This document shows positions 41,921 through 49,984 of a DNA stretch of 64,000 nt, in pieces (position 1 is the first letter of the stretch; each line of letters starts with the position of its first letter). The notes beneath the pieces are model-generated. The model did not search any database. It saw only the letters and a program-made list of their open reading frames with translations, and was not told the origin of the DNA. Source of the stretch: an uncultured Gammaproteobacteria bacterium (GTDB lineage Bacteria > Pseudomonadota > Gammaproteobacteria > Eutrophobiales > Eutrophobiaceae); contig CALSRS010000001.1 of the NCBI GenBank assembly GCA_943788815.1, forward strand, positions 1,549,501-1,613,500, read 5' to 3'. Both the position numbers and the translations under genes were made by a program.

Positions 41921-43672
41921 ATGAAAGAGATAATTGAAAATCATCTGGCATCAGCTGTTGAAACCTATATAAAACAGCAAAATGTATCAATAAATGCTGC
42001 TCCCTCCGTTGAAATTGATCACACAAATGATCCTCAACATGGGGACTTTGCATCAAATATCGCCATGATACTGGCCAAGCCCATAGGCTTGCCCCCTAGA
42101 GAAATTGCAAACGGCATTATCCAATGCCTGTCAGAATTCCCCCTCCTGGATAAATGTGAAATTGCCGGTCCGGGATTTATTAATTTTTTCCTGACAAAAG
42201 ATGCTTATTATCAAATTATCCCTGAAATACTAGAACAAGCTAAAGACTATGGAAAATCCGAATCAGGAAATTCAAAAAAAATCCTGCTTGAGTATGTCTC
42301 ATCAAACCCCACTGGACCAATACATATTGGTCACGGCAGAGGGGCTGCTTATGGGTCGGTGCTGGCAAATTTATTGTCTACCACCGGGCATAAAGTAACC
42401 CGGGAATACTACGTTAATGATTATGGAAGACAGATGGACATCCTTACCATCAGTGTATGGTTAAGGTATTTAAATTTACAAAATGGTCATGACATCCCTT
42501 TTCCCCAAAATGCCTACCATGGTCAATATATTAGTGATATCGCATCTGCCATTTATAATAAAGCTAAAAGTCTTCCACAACCAGAACCTGGAGAGTTGCA
42601 ATCTATTATCAATGGCCACACAGAAGAAGATAAAAAGCTGGACGAAATAATTGAACTTGCCAAAAACACACTGAAACAACAATACCATGAAGTGGTGTTT
42701 ACTCATGCTCTAGATGATATTCTTGCGGGCATTAAACAGGACCTCAATGAATTCGGTGTAGGATTTGATCGCTGGTATTCAGAACGGTCTCTTGTAGATA
42801 AAAATTTAATTTCTGAATGCATGGATAAACTTGAGTCTACTGGCGACATCTATGAAAAAGAGGGGGCCAGGTGGTTTAAATCTACTGCTTATGGAGATGA
42901 AAAAGACCGTGTAGTCGTCAGGGAAAATGGCCTAACCACCTATTTTGCATCGGACATTGCCTATCACGTAGATAAGTATAATCGAGGCTTTGATGAGATT
43001 ATTAATATATGGGGAGCTGATCATCACGGCTACATCAGCAGAGTCAAGGGTGCCTTAAAAGCATTTGGTAAAGATCCAGCCAAATTAAAAATTTTACTGG
43101 TTCAGTTTGCTACATTATATAAAGGTGATGAAAAACTACAGATGTCCACACGATCCGGCGATTACGTCACCTTAAAGCAGCTACGTGATGAAGTGGGCAA
43201 TGACGCGACCCGATTCTTCTACGTGATGCGCAAAGCGGAACAACATCTTGATTTTGACCTGGAATTGGCAAAATCTGAGTCTAACGCGAATCCCGTTTAT
43301 TATATTCAATACGCCCATGCCAGGATCTGCAGCGTCTTCAAACAAATGACGGAGAGAAATTTGAATTTCGATATTGAAACGGGAATCAAGTCCTTATCAT
43401 TATTAGAAACTGAATCTGAATTAAAACTGGTTAAGGCTATTGCCCGCTACCCTGAAGTCATCAACATTGCTGCCAGAAACCTGGAACCACACCAGCTATC
43501 ATTTTATCTACGTGAATTAGCAAATGACTTTCATGCTTACTATAATTCCTGCCAATTTCTGGTAGAAAATGATGCATTACGCCAGGCGAGGTTTTGCCTG
43601 ATATCAGCAACACGTCAAGTAATACAGAACGGATTAGGCATCCTGGGCGTATCCGCACCTGAGGAAATGTAA
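41921..43672 (+). CDS. argS: Arginyl-tRNA synthetase
   Basis: This class I synthetase charges tRNA-Arg. The 583-residue protein has the HIGH motif in SSNPTGPIHIGHGRGA (near 136) and a degenerate KMSKS equivalent in LQMSTRSG (near 406), usual for ArgS. The anticodon-binding DALR domain ends the protein. AAGGAC lies upstream of the ATG. The stop overlaps the next start by one base (TAATG). Confidence 0.97.
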   Translation: MKEIIENHLASAVETYIKQQNVSINAAPSVEIDHTNDPQHGDFASNIAMILAKPIGLPPREIANGIIQCLSEFPLLDKCEIAGPGFINFFLTKDAYYQIIPEILEQAKDYGKSESGNSKKILLEYVSSNPTGPIHIGHGRGAAYGSVLANLLSTTGHKVTREYYVNDYGRQMDILTISVWLRYLNLQNGHDIPFPQNAYHGQYISDIASAIYNKAKSLPQPEPGELQSIINGHTEEDKKLDEIIELAKNTLKQQYHEVVFTHALDDILAGIKQDLNEFGVGFDRWYSERSLVDKNLISECMDKLESTGDIYEKEGARWFKSTAYGDEKDRVVVRENGLTTYFASDIAYHVDKYNRGFDEIINIWGADHHGYISRVKGALKAFGKDPAKLKILLVQFATLYKGDEKLQMSTRSGDYVTLKQLRDEVGNDATRFFYVMRKAEQHLDFDLELAKSESNANPVYYIQYAHARICSVFKQMTERNLNFDIETGIKSLSLLETESELKLVKAIARYPEVINIAARNLEPHQLSFYLRELANDFHAYYNSCQFLVENDALRQARFCLISATRQVIQNGLGILGVSAPEEM

Positions 43673-44283
43673 TGGCAAAAGATTACAAACATGCACCCAA
43701 ACCTGGACAAGAAAAAAAAGGGAGTACCTTTGGCGCAATCATGACCTTTTTAACGGGCCTTGCGCTGGGACTGTTTGCTGCATTATTCATGTACCTGAAT
43801 CAATCAAATAGTGGATATATCCCATTCTTCTCAAAATCTGAAACATCGATTCAAACAGAACCCACACAAATACCTGAGACCGTAGTAGAAGTTAATGAAC
43901 CTGAACAATCCCTGGAACCTCAATTTGATTTCTATAACATCCTACCCAATAAAGAAATCAACATATCTGAATGGATAGCTGAAGATCAAACGCTTGGCAA
44001 TGCAGTCAGTGAAAATGATAACAGCGTCTATCTCTTGCAAGTGGGTTCGTTTAACCAACTAGAAGCCGCGGATCAGGTAAAAGCCCAACTTGCCTTGCTG
44101 GGGATCGTTGCTGATATACAGAGGGTGGTAATTAATGGTCAGGACACCCGCTTTCGCGTCAGAGTAGGACCTTATGCAGATCAGAAGAAGTTAAACCAGG
44201 AGCGACGACGTCTTCAAGAAAACAACCTTGAATACATGTTGCTCAAACTTCAGGCGGATGATCCAAGCATCAATAATCAGTGA
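43672..44283 (+). CDS. SPOR-domain membrane protein (FtsN-like)
   Basis: The 203-residue protein has a short cytoplasmic N-terminus, one membrane helix (about residues 20-42), an acidic linker rich in Glu and Pro, and a C-terminal SPOR domain (about 120-195: VYLLQVGSFNQLEAADQVKAQL ... RFRVRVGPYADQ). SPOR domains bind denuded glycan strands at the septum, so a role in cell division or envelope remodelling is likely. It is coupled to argS by a one-base overlap. In Pseudomonas hslVU follows at this point; here the order breaks. Confidence 0.88.
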   Translation: MAKDYKHAPKPGQEKKGSTFGAIMTFLTGLALGLFAALFMYLNQSNSGYIPFFSKSETSIQTEPTQIPETVVEVNEPEQSLEPQFDFYNILPNKEINISEWIAEDQTLGNAVSENDNSVYLLQVGSFNQLEAADQVKAQLALLGIVADIQRVVINGQDTRFRVRVGPYADQKKLNQERRRLQENNLEYMLLKLQADDPSINNQ

Positions 44284-44299
44284 GACGAATAATGTAATA

Positions 44300-44363
44300 G
44301 ACAGGATTTACATGATTCTGAATGTGCAAGGATATAATTCTTCTTAATCTAGCAAATCCTGTC
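44300..44363. repeat. Inverted GACAGGATTTAC-family repeat between convergent genes
   Basis: GACAGGATTTACATGATT at 44300 faces an inverted copy ending GCAAATCCTGTC at 44363. The stem would lie between the stops of the SPOR gene and the opposing sulfotransferase-like gene, where it could serve as a two-way transcription stop. Confidence 0.65.
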
Positions 44364-44372
44364 CATTTTGTT

Positions 44373-45593
44373 TTATTCAGTATCACTGAGCTTTAATTTC
44401 TTCCTATACTCATCAAACTTTTCATTTATAAGAACCCCATCTGGCCTAATTAATTTCGCCAGTTTTATAAATTGATATGCTCTGCCTGGATCTTTCTTTT
44501 CCCACATAATTGCTGTATCCCGAAGAACATCAACATCCATCAGGTCATCACTCGTATTAAAAAAGCGCTTTTTTTCATTTATTGAGGCATCTGAATTTGC
44601 CTCAATATATTCCCAGACTAAAACTTTCATCCAGACATTAATCCCGACTGATTTTTGAATGATTGTTTCAACTTCCTCTATAGTTAATCTGGGATCTCCA
44701 GAATATTTCATTTCGGTTGTGAATTCGATACCAGTCAACGATTTTATCTTATTATTTTCTTCAGCAAGATATTCAGTAAACTGTGCGGCCTCATCTTTTG
44801 TTAAATAAAATTTATCGTTATTAAACTCCAGGTCTCTCAGACGAAAATACCGTCTGACTGGATTAGGTTTATTATTAATCATTAACGGTTCGATGTTATT
44901 GATGTATTCACCCAACCGAGTTAGCTTATTGCTAATACTGTTGTTATCTCTATATTCCTCAAGATTAGATAAATCATTAATGCCTAGAATATTAAAAAAC
45001 TTAACTACCGGACCGCCTTCATTTAAACTTTCATCAAATGAGTAAAATTCGGATTCAGCAAAGACATTTTTAAACTTTTCTATCATCCTGGAAGCTACCC
45101 GGAAATTTTTATCCTCAGGATGTAAATCATCCACAAGCTTCTTTCCACCTCTTGAAATCACATGTGCCAACCAGGAATTTATGGCTTCATATGGATCACG
45201 AACAAAAACTATTATCCTGATATTAAAATCCGTAAAATAATCTTTAAGACGCTCTAATCCGTCCTCATTCAGGCTACTGATACCCTCACCACTTATGAGC
45301 AGTCTCTCACCACCTAGATTACTAATACTTTTTTTTAGTTGCTGCTCGTAAAATTTTCCAACCTCATCCGCTATCCAATTATTTTTCTTATTCAAATAAT
45401 GTTCTTCCGGATTATCTCGAAACAGATTAATGATGACGCTGGAATGGTTTTTCAATTTTCGTTTATCTGGTTTTATAACATCTAAAAATTGATAACCATT
45501 CCTTTTTAGAATTTGCTGATTAAAAAACAGCGAGCGCTGAATTGAGGTAGAACCAGTTTTATGTAGACCAGCATGGATGATGACTTCTTTCAT
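44373..45593 (-). CDS. Sulfotransferase-like protein
   Basis: The N-terminus carries the PAPS 5'-phosphosulfate loop in HAGLHKTGSTSIQRSLF. The probable 3'-phosphate motif is IRIIVFVRDPYEAINSWLAHVISRG near 120-145. The 406-residue length exceeds the minimal domain; the C-terminal third is helical and not recognised. The likely reaction is transfer of sulfate to a saccharide or other surface acceptor. A neighbouring fragment of an SGNH acyltransferase hints at a former polysaccharide-modification locus. The ATG lacks a Shine-Dalgarno sequence. Confidence 0.75.
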   Translation of the reverse strand: MKEVIIHAGLHKTGSTSIQRSLFFNQQILKRNGYQFLDVIKPDKRKLKNHSSVIINLFRDNPEEHYLNKKNNWIADEVGKFYEQQLKKSISNLGGERLLISGEGISSLNEDGLERLKDYFTDFNIRIIVFVRDPYEAINSWLAHVISRGGKKLVDDLHPEDKNFRVASRMIEKFKNVFAESEFYSFDESLNEGGPVVKFFNILGINDLSNLEEYRDNNSISNKLTRLGEYINNIEPLMINNKPNPVRRYFRLRDLEFNNDKFYLTKDEAAQFTEYLAEENNKIKSLTGIEFTTEMKYSGDPRLTIEEVETIIQKSVGINVWMKVLVWEYIEANSDASINEKKRFFNTSDDLMDVDVLRDTAIMWEKKDPGRAYQFIKLAKLIRPDGVLINEKFDEYRKKLKLSDTE

Positions 45594-45632
45594 TTTTAAA
45601 TTATGAAGTAAAGTCGTAATAAATAATACATG

Positions 45633-45842
45633 CTATTGGTTTTCCAAAAATACATTCCCATTGGTTGCAGTACCCATCAAAGATCGAATTTGAGGTGAAA
45701 GATATCGTACAAAGGAATCAGTCAAATGTTGACCGTCACGAAATACCACCACGCCATCTCCTGTAATGGCCCGACAGATTTCATCCGGACATATCAGCTG
45801 GTTTAAATCCAGGATATGTAATCTAATCCCTACACTAATTCC
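45633..45842 (-). pseudogene. C-terminal remnant of an acyltransferase-3/SGNH protein
   Basis: An open frame of 69 codons ends at a TAG at 45633-45635 and is closed upstream by an in-frame TAG at 45843-45845, with no credible start. It reads like the end of the SGNH domain fused to OafA/OatA-type acyltransferases: ILDLNQLICPDEIC, then GDGVVVFRDGQHLTDSF with the catalytic DxxH pair, then VRYLSPQI. The rest of the gene is absent: the tRNA-Gly gene lies 24 bp beyond the closed end. It looks like the stump of a gene removed by rearrangement at the tRNA. Confidence 0.65.
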
Positions 45843-45865
45843 CTACAGATTCCGCGAAGTTAAAC

Positions 45866-45939
45866 TGGAGCGGGTGATGGGAATCGAACCCACGCTATCA
45901 GCTTGGGAAGCTGAAGTTCTGCCATTGAACTACACCCGC
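45866..45939 (-). tRNA. glyU: tRNA-Gly (anticodon CCC), copy 1
   Basis: The 74-nt minus-strand sequence folds as a cloverleaf with acceptor GCGGGTG/CACCCGC, D-arm GTTC/GAAC, anticodon stem TCAGC/GCTGA, loop TTCCCAA (anticodon CCC), a TTCGATT T-loop and an encoded CCA. It closely resembles E. coli glyU. Confidence 0.95.
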
Positions 45940-46296
45940 AATTTATTTAAATTCCCATCATATGTTATGGGCTTATTCTGTACGTCCTTGTACTCCACCT
46001 TTTCGGGGCCAGTGTCGCTCCGCTCCACTGTTCAAATTTCTTCCAGACAAATTTGTCGAACCCACGTTACCAGCTTGGGAAGCGCTTTTCTGTGGAAATT
46101 CAGGTCATATCTCCCACTAAAATCACGGGGTTATAGTAGGCCATTTTGGTGAACCAATCTATCCCGCGTATTTGGCGGGATTGTGCGTGTATCCAGAAAT
46201 TTTCCCACATATACAGAGTTTTCAAACTTTACTGAGCAGGTAAAACCAATATATCCTTTAATCTCGATAAATCGCTTGATGGAAAGTATTAAGAAT
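45940..46296. other. Intergenic stretch between tRNA-Gly copy 1 and the exported-protein pair
   Basis: This 357-bp gap holds no credible gene; one plus-strand ORF across the tRNA is an artefact. It contains an AAATTT inverted repeat at about 46033-46056 followed directly by the tRNA fragment. An in-frame extension of the next gene upstream of 46297 lacks conserved features and is not used. Confidence 0.6.
46056..46083 (-). repeat. 28-bp tRNA-Gly fragment
   Basis: These 28 bp are identical to 49296-49323 inside the second tRNA-Gly gene, in the same orientation. They cover the anticodon loop, the 3' side of the anticodon stem, the variable loop and most of the T-arm. Flanks on both sides are unrelated to tRNA. 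It matches copy 2 (CTGGTAACG) rather than copy 1 (CTGATAGCG) at the variable positions. Confidence 0.85.
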
Positions 46297-47382
46297 ATGA
46301 AATCTTTATACATAGTTATATGTTTCGTTATTTTAAGTAATATTTATATACCTCCTATAACCATGGCTCAAGATCAGCAGCTCACATCACATCCTGATTA
46401 CGCTACAGTTAATGTAAGGCTAAATAACAGCACAATAGAATTTCTTAATATAAACGTTAATGATCAGGATATAGGAAAAATATATAGAAAAAACGATTTG
46501 TTAACCATTCAGCTCGTTCCCGGATTTTATAAATTTAAAACTAATGACCAATATTGGGCTAGCAATACCCCCGCTCCAGCGCCGGAATTAATGGCTCTAT
46601 TTGATCTTGAAGTATCTCCTGGTTCCGTAGTGTTACTTGAATGTTACTCTGAGATGGGTGGTGTTATTTTTAAAAAAATACCAAAGGATGCCGTACTGCA
46701 AGAATGGGACAACTATTGCCCTGGAGGCGACCTAACAGAAAATTCTAATGTCAAAGCCTGTGTTAAACCTTATCGAGAGACCAATGTCGGAATGCTTGAA
46801 AAACAAGGTCTGGGTACAACAATTCCGCAAAGCGCCTGTTACCTTTCTGATAACCATGAAGTATTAAAGACCTCTAATCTGGTTGAATCTGAGATTGATT
46901 TCATTACCAATGAAGCTTTTGAGTTTGCGCAAGCGGAAGAACTAAATACTGTTTCCGCCTACCAGGATTTTATAAACACGTATCCAGATGGCAAATTAAC
47001 CAGCAATGCCTTTGATATGATCAATCACCTGGAAATGCAAAATACAATCGCTGCCCAGGAGCAGAAAATCAGAGAAACTCAACAGCGGGATGCTGCACTC
47101 CCCTTGCAGGTGAGAAAGGACAAGTATCTGATCGCGCTGACCGGCCATCTGAAACAGCAGGAGTTTGAAGATGCATTATTTTATATAGATCTGCTGGATC
47201 AACTTAATGTGGAACTATCCCCTTCTTTTGAATTCTTCTGGGGTGAAGCGTTGCTTCGAACCGGCCAGACCGACCTGGCGGTTGAGAAACTGTATTCCTA
47301 TATTAACAATGCTGGGACAAATGGCACTTATTACAACCAGGCGTTGCAACTGACTCTCGAGGCCGAGAGCATGGGCCAATGA
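46297..47382 (+). CDS. Exported protein with TPR-like C-terminal region, function unknown
   Basis: A signal peptide (MKSLYIVICFVILSNIYIPP, cleavage likely after MAQ) opens the 361-residue protein. Residues 30-150 look like a beta-rich domain with a PEGA/DUF2846-like flavour (LTIQLVPGFYKFKTND), which I cannot assign firmly. A helical C-terminal half (LKQQEFEDALFYIDLLDQL, FFWGEALLRTGQTDLAVEKLYSYI) resembles TPR repeats. GGAAAG ten bases upstream supports the ATG at 46297; other in-frame starts exist upstream. The stop overlaps the next gene in ATGA. Base composition appears to rise in GC from about 47030 onward. Confidence 0.7.
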   Translation: MKSLYIVICFVILSNIYIPPITMAQDQQLTSHPDYATVNVRLNNSTIEFLNINVNDQDIGKIYRKNDLLTIQLVPGFYKFKTNDQYWASNTPAPAPELMALFDLEVSPGSVVLLECYSEMGGVIFKKIPKDAVLQEWDNYCPGGDLTENSNVKACVKPYRETNVGMLEKQGLGTTIPQSACYLSDNHEVLKTSNLVESEIDFITNEAFEFAQAEELNTVSAYQDFINTYPDGKLTSNAFDMINHLEMQNTIAAQEQKIRETQQRDAALPLQVRKDKYLIALTGHLKQQEFEDALFYIDLLDQLNVELSPSFEFFWGEALLRTGQTDLAVEKLYSYINNAGTNGTYYNQALQLTLEAESMGQ

Positions 47383-49172
47383 ATACACCATTAATAAGGT
47401 CTGTCCTGCTGTTTTCATTGTGTTTCGCTTTCACAGGTTCATCTGCCCAGGGCCTGGACGAGGCAACTGCAGAGTCCATCAAAACCGCCTGTCATGGCAA
47501 CCTGCTGGACAGGAATTCAGACCCTTTATCGGGTTTAATTTATGAAAATTCCCCAGTATGTGAAGAGGTCATTCAACAGGGCGAAGATGCGGATATCTGG
47601 CCGATACTGCAAAGACATAACTTCAACCTCACCCAGGAAGACCTCAACCGCATGTATGGCGATAATGATGCCTATTCCAGACGGGCTTCGAATATCGAGC
47701 TTGAATGTACCGTCAGGGACCCATTGAAAGAACAGGGGATAGACGGCGAGTGCATGAGAAGGCGGCAACGCCTCGAAGCAAACGGCACACCAATGACCCA
47801 GCAACAGTACGAGCAAATCGCCACCTATTGTGAAGGCGAACCTACGCAAAGCGGTTGCATTGAACAATGGATCAACGAGGAATGGGTTAGGAATGGTAAC
47901 CGTCAGTTACCTTCCCGGAAAGTTGATGTAGGTGGCCTGGATATTGATTCCCTGATGGGGGGCGGACAAGCTACAACAACCGCATCAGAACCTGCACCAC
48001 AAGCAGCAGAGGGATCACTGAGCATCGACGACCTGATGGGAAGTACCCCTTCACAAGGACCACAGAATATTGAATCGGAATTTGCCGAATTAGGCACAAC
48101 GGATCAAAACACCCGTATCAAGGCCGGTGAAACCAGTTTTGATAATATTTACGAGGGCCGTACACAGATTAATCTGGATAACCACAAACAATACCTGGCT
48201 TTACTTAATGAGCAAATTTCCATCACGTGTCAATGTGCAATTGCAAATAACACATGTTATGTCCCGGCAAACTTCCAATTTGAACAGTTAAGCAGTGCTG
48301 CACAACAGCAGGCTGCAGACTTTTCCCAAAGCAAGGCAAACGTGTGTAATGGCTGGGTAAGTAACCTGCGCGGCAAGACCTCAAACGATATCGGCGCGGT
48401 GAACGGCTATATTGTAAATGCCGAGATTATCCAGTCCAACTTAGACAGGCTGGATACAGGATACAATGCTCTAGTCGCACAATTGCAAAACCAGGAACAG
48501 ACCATTAAAAATGAAATTGCCCGCAGGGAGGCCGAACAGAGACGCATTGCAGATGAACAGGCCGCCGAGGCCCGCTATAACGCAATAGGCGCAGCTATTG
48601 CAATTGGCGCAGCGGGTGTCGCCGCATCCAGTCTACCTACAGAACAAGGCATGGAATTGTTTACCAATATCACTCGGGATGTACTCTCGGAAAGTGGAAG
48701 CGCATCAAATACAATCAGCATGATGCAAAACTATGGTTATGGATCAATACAGCTAGAACAACCAGATTTTAACATGACGAATAACGCAATGGACAACGTC
48801 AATACATTTCCACAGGAACCGGTCCAGACCGCATCCATATCTCAATCAAGCACTATCAATCAAAATACCCAATCTTTAACAAATAGCCAGTTGTGTAATG
48901 CCAGTGGTCAAAGCGCTGACCCAAGCCAGGTCATATTCTGGAATGGGAGTTCATTAGAATGCGCAAATGGATCGGCGCCCTACCTTAATATTGGCAGCCG
49001 ATGGGGACATGTTACCTGCAATTCACCACAACCTGTGCGTAATGACGTACGCATGTGCAACCGGCAGGAACTTCGCGAATCTTATACCGCTAACTGTAAT
49101 TATTTACCGGATAACGAAAACACAATGCCAAATAAAAGAACCTGTCTGAGTGTCATTGAGTTGAATTTCTAA
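47379..49172 (+). CDS. Large exported Cys-containing protein of unknown function
   Basis: The 597-residue protein has a signal peptide (about 1-24, ending TGSSAQG) and no recognised domain. Cysteines cluster in the N-terminal 170 residues and in the last 100 (CNASGQSAD, LECANG, HVTCNSPQ, RMCNRQ, NCNYLP, RTCLSV). Two copies of an LxIDxLMG motif (about 187-194 and 213-220) lie in a Gly/Ala/Gln-rich linker. A predicted coiled coil (QNQEQTIKNEIARREAEQRR) is followed by an Ala/Gly-rich hydrophobic stretch near 405-420. Its start overlaps the upstream exported protein, so the two are probably made together. It sits directly before tRNA-Gly copy 2. Confidence 0.72.
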   Translation: MNTPLIRSVLLFSLCFAFTGSSAQGLDEATAESIKTACHGNLLDRNSDPLSGLIYENSPVCEEVIQQGEDADIWPILQRHNFNLTQEDLNRMYGDNDAYSRRASNIELECTVRDPLKEQGIDGECMRRRQRLEANGTPMTQQQYEQIATYCEGEPTQSGCIEQWINEEWVRNGNRQLPSRKVDVGGLDIDSLMGGGQATTTASEPAPQAAEGSLSIDDLMGSTPSQGPQNIESEFAELGTTDQNTRIKAGETSFDNIYEGRTQINLDNHKQYLALLNEQISITCQCAIANNTCYVPANFQFEQLSSAAQQQAADFSQSKANVCNGWVSNLRGKTSNDIGAVNGYIVNAEIIQSNLDRLDTGYNALVAQLQNQEQTIKNEIARREAEQRRIADEQAAEARYNAIGAAIAIGAAGVAASSLPTEQGMELFTNITRDVLSESGSASNTISMMQNYGYGSIQLEQPDFNMTNNAMDNVNTFPQEPVQTASISQSSTINQNTQSLTNSQLCNASGQSADPSQVIFWNGSSLECANGSAPYLNIGSRWGHVTCNSPQPVRNDVRMCNRQELRESYTANCNYLPDNENTMPNKRTCLSVIELNF

Positions 49173-49277
49173 TGGCCTGGACTTCGAGCGGAGCCAGTAT
49201 TGCAACCATATTCAAACCGTCTCACACCAATCAACAATTTACATATCAGCTTTTTTAAATATACCATGTAGTTAGAC

Positions 49278-49351
49278 TGGAGCGGGTGATGGGAATCGAA
49301 CCCACGTTACCAGCTTGGGAAGCTGAAGTTCTGCCATTGAACTACACCCGC
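49278..49351 (-). tRNA. glyU: tRNA-Gly (anticodon CCC), copy 2
   Basis: The 74-nt cloverleaf matches copy 1 except at two bases in the 3' side of the anticodon arm and variable loop (GCTGGTAACG against GCTGATAGCG), which turns the outer anticodon-stem pair into a U-G wobble. The anticodon loop TTCCCAA and encoded CCA are intact. Confidence 0.95.
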
Positions 49352-49603: not shown

Positions 49604-49984
49604 ATGGCAGATAATAATCAAAAGATCGTAGTGGTAGTCGATGATAGCCCGAGCCTGGCCACATTGTTTGAACGTGCGATTATCGATATGGATATTTCTC
49701 TCCAGATATTTGATAAAACGTCTGCTGCCGCTGAATATCTTAAGGACAATAAGCCCGATCTGATTTTTATGAACATCAAAATGCCGGGGAAAGATGGACT
49801 GGCCACATTGAAAGAGATCAGAAAACAGCCCCTCCACAGTGATACCCTTGTTTTAATGATCAGCTCTAAGGATTACGCTCAAGACCGATCTATTGCCAAG
49901 GAATTGGGTGCAATTGAGTTTATTACCAAGCCCATGCCTATCCAGGTAATCAAGGATGCTCTGATAAAGCATCTAAATTTTTGA
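49604..49984 (+). CDS. Stand-alone receiver-domain protein lacking the phospho-accepting Asp
   Basis: The 126-residue protein is a single CheY-like receiver. The acidic pair Asp13-Asp14 (VVVDDSPS), Ser87 (LMISS) and Lys109 (ITKPM) are present, but the phosphorylation-site Asp is replaced by Asn57 in FMNIKMPGKDG. It therefore should not take an aspartyl phosphate and may be a constitutive or ligand-sensing pseudo-receiver. There is no output domain. An MBL-fold hydrolase gene follows after 33 bp on the same strand, suggesting a functional pair. Confidence 0.88.
   Translation: MADNNQKIVVVVDDSPSLATLFERAIIDMDISLQIFDKTSAAAEYLKDNKPDLIFMNIKMPGKDGLATLKEIRKQPLHSDTLVLMISSKDYAQDRSIAKELGAIEFITKPMPIQVIKDALIKHLNF

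Follow-up and report, generated by a model that had tools for sequence, protein, structure and literature searches.

Gene content of the tRNA-Gly locus

The window, i.e. the whole stretch of 64,000 nucleotides that was analyzed, carries two tRNA-Gly(CCC) genes on its minus strand, identified with ARAGORN and here called copy 1 (45866..45939) and copy 2 (49278..49351). As stated in the original prediction, they are near-identical and in the same orientation, with 72 of 74 positions in common and differences at positions 42 and 45 only. Their leaders show little similarity (P 0.18 over 25 nt and 0.04 over 16 nt). Between them, a sequence match revealed a 28-bp piece of tRNA-Gly (46056..46083, minus strand), corresponding to positions 29-56 of copy 2, from the anticodon stem to the T-loop. 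The predicted identity to copy 2 holds over the full length (28/28), compared with 26/28 for copy 1. Read along the minus strand, the fragment passes directly into a repeat starting GACAAATTTGTCTGG (45974..46057, minus strand), which was delimited with the covariance model R1. This repeat of ~84 bp, which resembles the tRNA-linked repeats (TLRs) of E. coli, has four hairpins and is inserted after the T-loop sequence GTTCGA. Between the repeat and copy 1 lies a short hairpin, CCCATAACATATGATGGG (45954..45971, minus strand), the first half of which equals the 3' strand of the tRNA T-stem. At the other end of the fragment the break is clean, with no residual trace of tRNA positions 1-28 upstream of it (P 0.42).

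The fragment is the remainder of a third tRNA-Gly copy, broken by the repeat in its T-loop. It had been proposed as an att-like core, but it is not simply that: a bare core was ruled out, as the fragment continues into a structured, dispersed repeat, of which it forms the tRNA end and which is found at many other tRNAs.

Two overlapping genes for exported proteins had been predicted between the tRNA genes, and both were recovered on the plus strand, namely ORF1 (46303..47382, with the start set at 46303) and ORF2 (47379..49172). They overlap by 4 bp and share signal-peptide-like N-terminal stretches, as judged by eye. ORF1 encodes an exported protein of unknown family with a weak TPR-like C-terminus, and ORF2 an orphan exported coiled-coil protein whose match to DUF4407 falls below the cut-off. 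Weak partial matches to ORF1 were found in three class genomes, the best of them (in G268) being a short exported protein with no ORF2-like gene adjoining, while viral and plasmid collections gave no match. For ORF2, no homologs were found in the relatives, the class genomes, the genome itself, or viral, plasmid and phage collections. AlphaFold2 single-sequence models of both proteins were poor (mean pLDDT 45.5 for ORF1 and 42.2 for ORF2).

Just beyond the 3' end of copy 1, the predicted stump of an acyltransferase gene proved to be a C-terminal remnant of an AT3 acyltransferase (45636..45833, minus strand), comprising the end of its SGNH domain. It matches the last 44 positions (204-247 of 248) of PF19040, the SGNH domain fused to AT3 acyltransferases, with an E of 7.5e-8. 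Next to it is a sulfotransferase-like gene (44373..45593, minus strand), labeled as such from an N-terminal HKTGSTSIQ motif judged by eye; a Pfam search gave no match, and the only relatives of the gene are one in G038 (34%) and a short match in G023. The locus is framed by conserved genes. On the left, a SPOR-domain protein gene (43672..44283, plus strand) lies downstream of argS, an order kept in 20 relatives, and on the right a response-regulator (RR) gene (49604..49984, plus strand) is followed by MBL, thiG and trmB.

Acquired DNA next to a resident tRNA gene

The argS-SPOR-RR locus was read in 20 relatives. A single tRNA-Gly(CCC) lies between SPOR and RR in 15 of these and no tRNA in the remaining five. 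None of the 20 has two tRNAs, and neither ORF1 nor ORF2 occurs at the locus in any of them; an arrangement common to all relatives, with both genes between two tRNAs, had been named as the observation that would speak against an insertion. DNA homology to the nearest relative (G002) stops at 44264, after the SPOR gene, and restarts at 49274, at the 3' end of copy 2. Between 44284 and 49277, only the tRNA and short dispersed sequences match that genome. Copy 2 has G42 and A45 in common with G002, while the sequence of copy 1 is that of the tRNA in G001, G003 and G004. From the single-tRNA sites and the limits of homology to G002, it is well supported that 44284-49277 is acquired DNA and that copy 2 is the resident gene, in agreement with the original prediction of an island gained at tRNA-Gly. 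The predicted break in synteny also exists, but in the comparison with G002 it falls after the SPOR gene and not at copy 1.

The 3' side of the resident tRNA-Gly looks like a hotspot for foreign DNA, as G002 holds another sulfotransferase-like gene there and G047 holds ~2 kb. In two relatives (L076:4980-6580 and L077:4740-6320), the tRNA-Gly is gone and the gap is filled by a protein-kinase-like gene with a cyclic-nucleotide-binding end, as judged by eye. Just past the SPOR gene of the window, positions 44294-44340 recur in the nearest relative downstream of thiG, and therefore look like another dispersed repeat.

A structured repeat dispersed in Gammaproteobacteria

A second copy of the repeat is joined at the same T-loop point to tRNA-Arg(CCG) in the same genome. 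BLAST detected a copy in this genome with 76% identity. R1 identifies three copies in this genome, all situated at tRNAs, i.e. Gly(CCC), Ser(GCT) and Arg(CCG). It had been suggested that the fragment be sought elsewhere in the genome. A search with copy 2 matched the fragment itself and three tRNA-Gly genes, the third full match being tRNA-Gly(TCC), and nothing else; what does recur, at Ser(GCT) and Arg(CCG), is the adjoining repeat.

BLAST searches (E up to 0.5, at which the weakest matches may be due to chance) placed the repeat in 31 of 53 genomes of the family, representing 16 of 18 genera, and R1 detects it in 39 of 58 relatives. An exact degenerate pattern matched at least 119 stretches of GTDB genomes, including such genera as Vibrio, Serratia, Klebsiella, Citrobacter, Rheinheimera, Methylomonas, Gilliamella and Pseudomonas, and no viral contigs. 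Alignment of 50 copies yielded the four hairpins, in which 16 of the 20 model pairs show a two-sided change in one or more sequences. The window copy, which is itself among the 50 sequences from which R1 was built, scores 69 bits (E 2e-14), and in its predicted fold the T-stem stays closed around the repeat, with a modest z of -1.95. Both the identity of the repeat and its wide occurrence in Gammaproteobacteria are thereby well supported. No report of a wider distribution of such repeats was found in the open-access papers searched, which is not proof of absence, and exact words of the repeat led to unrelated papers only.

Among 40 loci in the relatives, hand-picked from high-scoring R1 matches, a tRNA was present within the ~1-kb stretch in 19 and, in our own reading, had the same orientation as the repeat in 16 of those 19. 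About half of the repeat copies are consequently not at tRNAs. Among 81 pattern matches (L211-L290), 12 were within 400 bp of a tRNA, and 16 fall in ERIC-like sequence according to a rough pattern test; insertions of ~70 bp in ERIC were reportedly described by Wilson and Sharp in 2006.

Position of the repeat at tRNA genes

When the sequences on either side of the repeat were aligned with the neighboring intact tRNA, two layouts could be distinguished. In the first, a 5' part of the tRNA that stops in the T-loop (56-59), the D-loop (~14-22) or the anticodon loop (37) adjoins the repeat, beyond which lie ~10 nt from the 3' strand of the stem concerned, a spacer and the intact tRNA. In the second, the intact tRNA comes first, and the repeat stands between it and a piece consisting of the last 19 nt of the tRNA. 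In all, the repeat occupies an arm loop beside an intact copy of the same tRNA at ~38 loci. The leader or trailer is also duplicated in several of them, with 89-100% identity over 35-158 bp, and some loci form short arrays, as the duplicated stretch takes in part of the repeat. The window copy follows the first layout minus tRNA positions 1-28. At the same locus in G015, which belongs to another genus of the family, the order is tRNA-Gly(1-56), repeat, hairpin and tRNA-Gly (L072/L130), including the placing of the hairpin between repeat and intact gene. The tRNA is in the opposite orientation to that of the window, so common ancestry of the two arrangements is not established.

The tRNA-Arg(CCG) mentioned above is split in its T-loop by the repeat at C1:1652280-1652359 (L209, G000:C1:1651500-1653500). 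It is the only Arg(CCG) found in the genome, in which the 44 other tRNAs include Arg(TCG) and no intact Arg(CCG). In G002, tRNA-Arg(CCG) is intact, with a repeat copy downstream. At L196 (G000:C1:952500-953600), a partial copy upstream of tRNA-Ser(GCT) holds the repeat in its D-loop, and leader and tRNA start are duplicated over 35 bp with 97% identity. In G013 (L079:4917-5212), at the locus that corresponds to the one in the window, a 116-bp stretch of tRNA 3' end and trailer downstream of tRNA-Gly(CCC) is present on both sides of a copy of the repeat that is inverted.

Comparison with known repeats

The repeat was compared with the TLRs of E. coli (Rfam RtT RF00391 / RttR), known since 1978 and, according to PMC8144298, of no known function. 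Both are structured repeats beside a tRNA gene in the same orientation, with T-arm sequence at the border, and the E. coli tyrT units have their parts in the order found here, i.e. GGTTCGA, hairpins, GCCCGAAGGG, a hairpin, AATAATCC and the tRNA 3' end. In contrast to these, the window copy is mirrored (tRNA 5' part, repeat, intact tRNA), and the similarity in sequence is slight. R1 detects four E. coli units weakly (11.9-13.6 bits), and the Rfam RtT model gives 40.3 bits for a copy in G014 (L151), against a cut-off of 45, and leaves the window copy unmatched up to an E of 1. The repeat consensus found no match when BLASTed against E. coli genomes. It is the order of parts, together with the weak model scores, that links the repeat to the E. 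coli TLRs. The published hallmark of a TLR is 18-19 bp of a tRNA or rRNA 3' end (PMC8144298). Other copies in the family, e.g. L126, L131, L138 and L148, do have the last 19 nt of a tRNA at the repeat end, whereas the window copy is preceded by tRNA positions 29-56 and followed by an intact tRNA. For this reason, it is treated as a variant resembling TLRs and is not filed as a member.

ERIC and YPAL repeats of enterobacteria are likewise small, structured and dispersed, but the repeat described here has another sequence and a four-hairpin structure. The targets of YPAL span or adjoin dyad symmetry and give duplications of 3-26 bp (PMC2229807), while the stretches duplicated at tRNAs here are longer, up to ~150 bp.

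Origin of the locus

The account that we favor, with somewhat better than even confidence, is that a tRNA-Gly copy was interrupted by a TLR-like element and that foreign segments then joined at tRNA-Gly sequences. The resident copy 2 is a gene beside which foreign DNA has gathered, on the 3' side. Insertion of a TLR-like element would duplicate either the leader and the 5' part of a tRNA or its 3' part and trailer, keeping one intact tRNA. The repeat in the window lies in the T-loop of such a partial tRNA-Gly duplicate just upstream of copy 1, and the 28-bp fragment is what survives of the duplicate. For the ORF1-ORF2 segment, recombination within tRNA positions 29-56 is the most likely way in. 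This is the simplest reading of two observations, namely that the 28-bp piece is the sole repeat of at least 10 bp common to both ends of the segment, and that tRNA positions 1-28 do not precede the fragment; the piece may accordingly have been the recombination site. Such an entry would have placed the fragment at one end of the segment and, at the other, a copy 2 made whole with incoming sequence. A second segment, with the sulfotransferase-like gene and the acyltransferase remnant, would have become attached to copy 1 at its 3' end. An enzyme may have been supplied in trans or since been lost.

In favor of this account are the empty sites, the spread and structure of the repeat, the arm-loop insertions beside intact tRNAs and the arrangement in G015. 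Several observations count against it: no integrase is found within ~60 kb, copy 1 does not match the fragment at positions 42 and 45 where a fresh duplication should give identity, the leaders of the two complete tRNA genes have little in common, and the G015 tRNA is inverted. With the resident allele in the fragment and another in copy 1, the duplication linked to the repeat would have to be either old or remodeled.

A classical integrase-made island, in which ORF1-ORF2 is a decayed integrative element with copy 2 as the regenerated tRNA and the 28-bp piece as the displaced one, the repeat having invaded the fragment later and the integrase having been lost, seems to us rather unlikely. The locus does resemble such islands, as collected by Islander (PMC4383910), in its complete tRNA, its fragment in the same orientation and the foreign genes between them, and the fragment begins at the anticodon stem, near a known crossover site (PMC4383910). 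Fragment and copy 2 are both on the minus strand and ~3.2 kb apart, within the 2-200 kb that Islander allows, and relatives have the one-tRNA empty site. Ordinary tRNA islands also exist elsewhere in this genome, as integrase genes lie within ~1 kb of tRNA genes at C1:1099135 (Arg(ACG)), C1:779290 (Ser(CGA), interrupted by stop codons) and C1:1534251 (Met); a further integrase-like frame is found at C1:241918. However, a PF00589 search of the genome found none in the segment or within ~60 kb of it, the nearest being that at C1:1534251; loss of an integrase was one of the possibilities named in the original prediction. Furthermore, Islander rejects fragments internal to a tRNA and asks that a displaced fragment reach a tRNA end (PMC4383910), while positions 29-56 of 74 reach neither, and the fragment here runs on into a dispersed repeat. 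On two counts, integrase gene and tRNA end, Islander would turn the locus down. The full tRNA (copy 1) just downstream of the repeat, as at ordinary repeat-bearing tRNAs, also makes it more likely that the repeat came first.

Acquisition of the whole 5-kb stretch at once from another lineage, copy 1 and repeat included, by homologous recombination at tRNA-Gly, we regard as improbable. It would explain why copy 1 has the sequence of the G001, G003 and G004 tRNA and not that of G002, and would account for the near-total lack of matches to the nearest relative over 44284-49277. Against it, the fragment beside the repeat has the resident allele and not that of copy 1, and G+C shifts inside the stretch from ~34% at the sulfotransferase-like gene to ~48% in ORF2. 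An old, vertically inherited arrangement lost in the relatives, in favor of which it can be said that the two tRNAs differ at positions also variable between lineages of the genus, is largely refuted by the 20-relative comparison and highly improbable, as it requires parallel loss in all 20 and ORF2 is not found in the other 368 class genomes sampled.

Splitting of a tRNA-Gly copy by a TLR-like element, which we prefer, can be placed in a wider setting, although we put this forward only tentatively, at slightly less than even confidence. TLR-like repeats may be small mobile elements occurring throughout Gammaproteobacteria, which target the arm loops of tRNAs (T-, D- and anticodon) and duplicate the adjacent part of the tRNA together with leader or trailer, leaving one intact tRNA in place. 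Both layouts, 5' and 3', would then be mirror-image outcomes of a single mechanism, and foreign DNA could join at the partial tRNA copies. With related elements present at arm loops and with duplications that can be read, the origin of TLRs becomes testable by comparison alone. A tRNA fragment beside a tRNA is, moreover, not always the footprint of an integrase, which bears on the automatic calling of islands.
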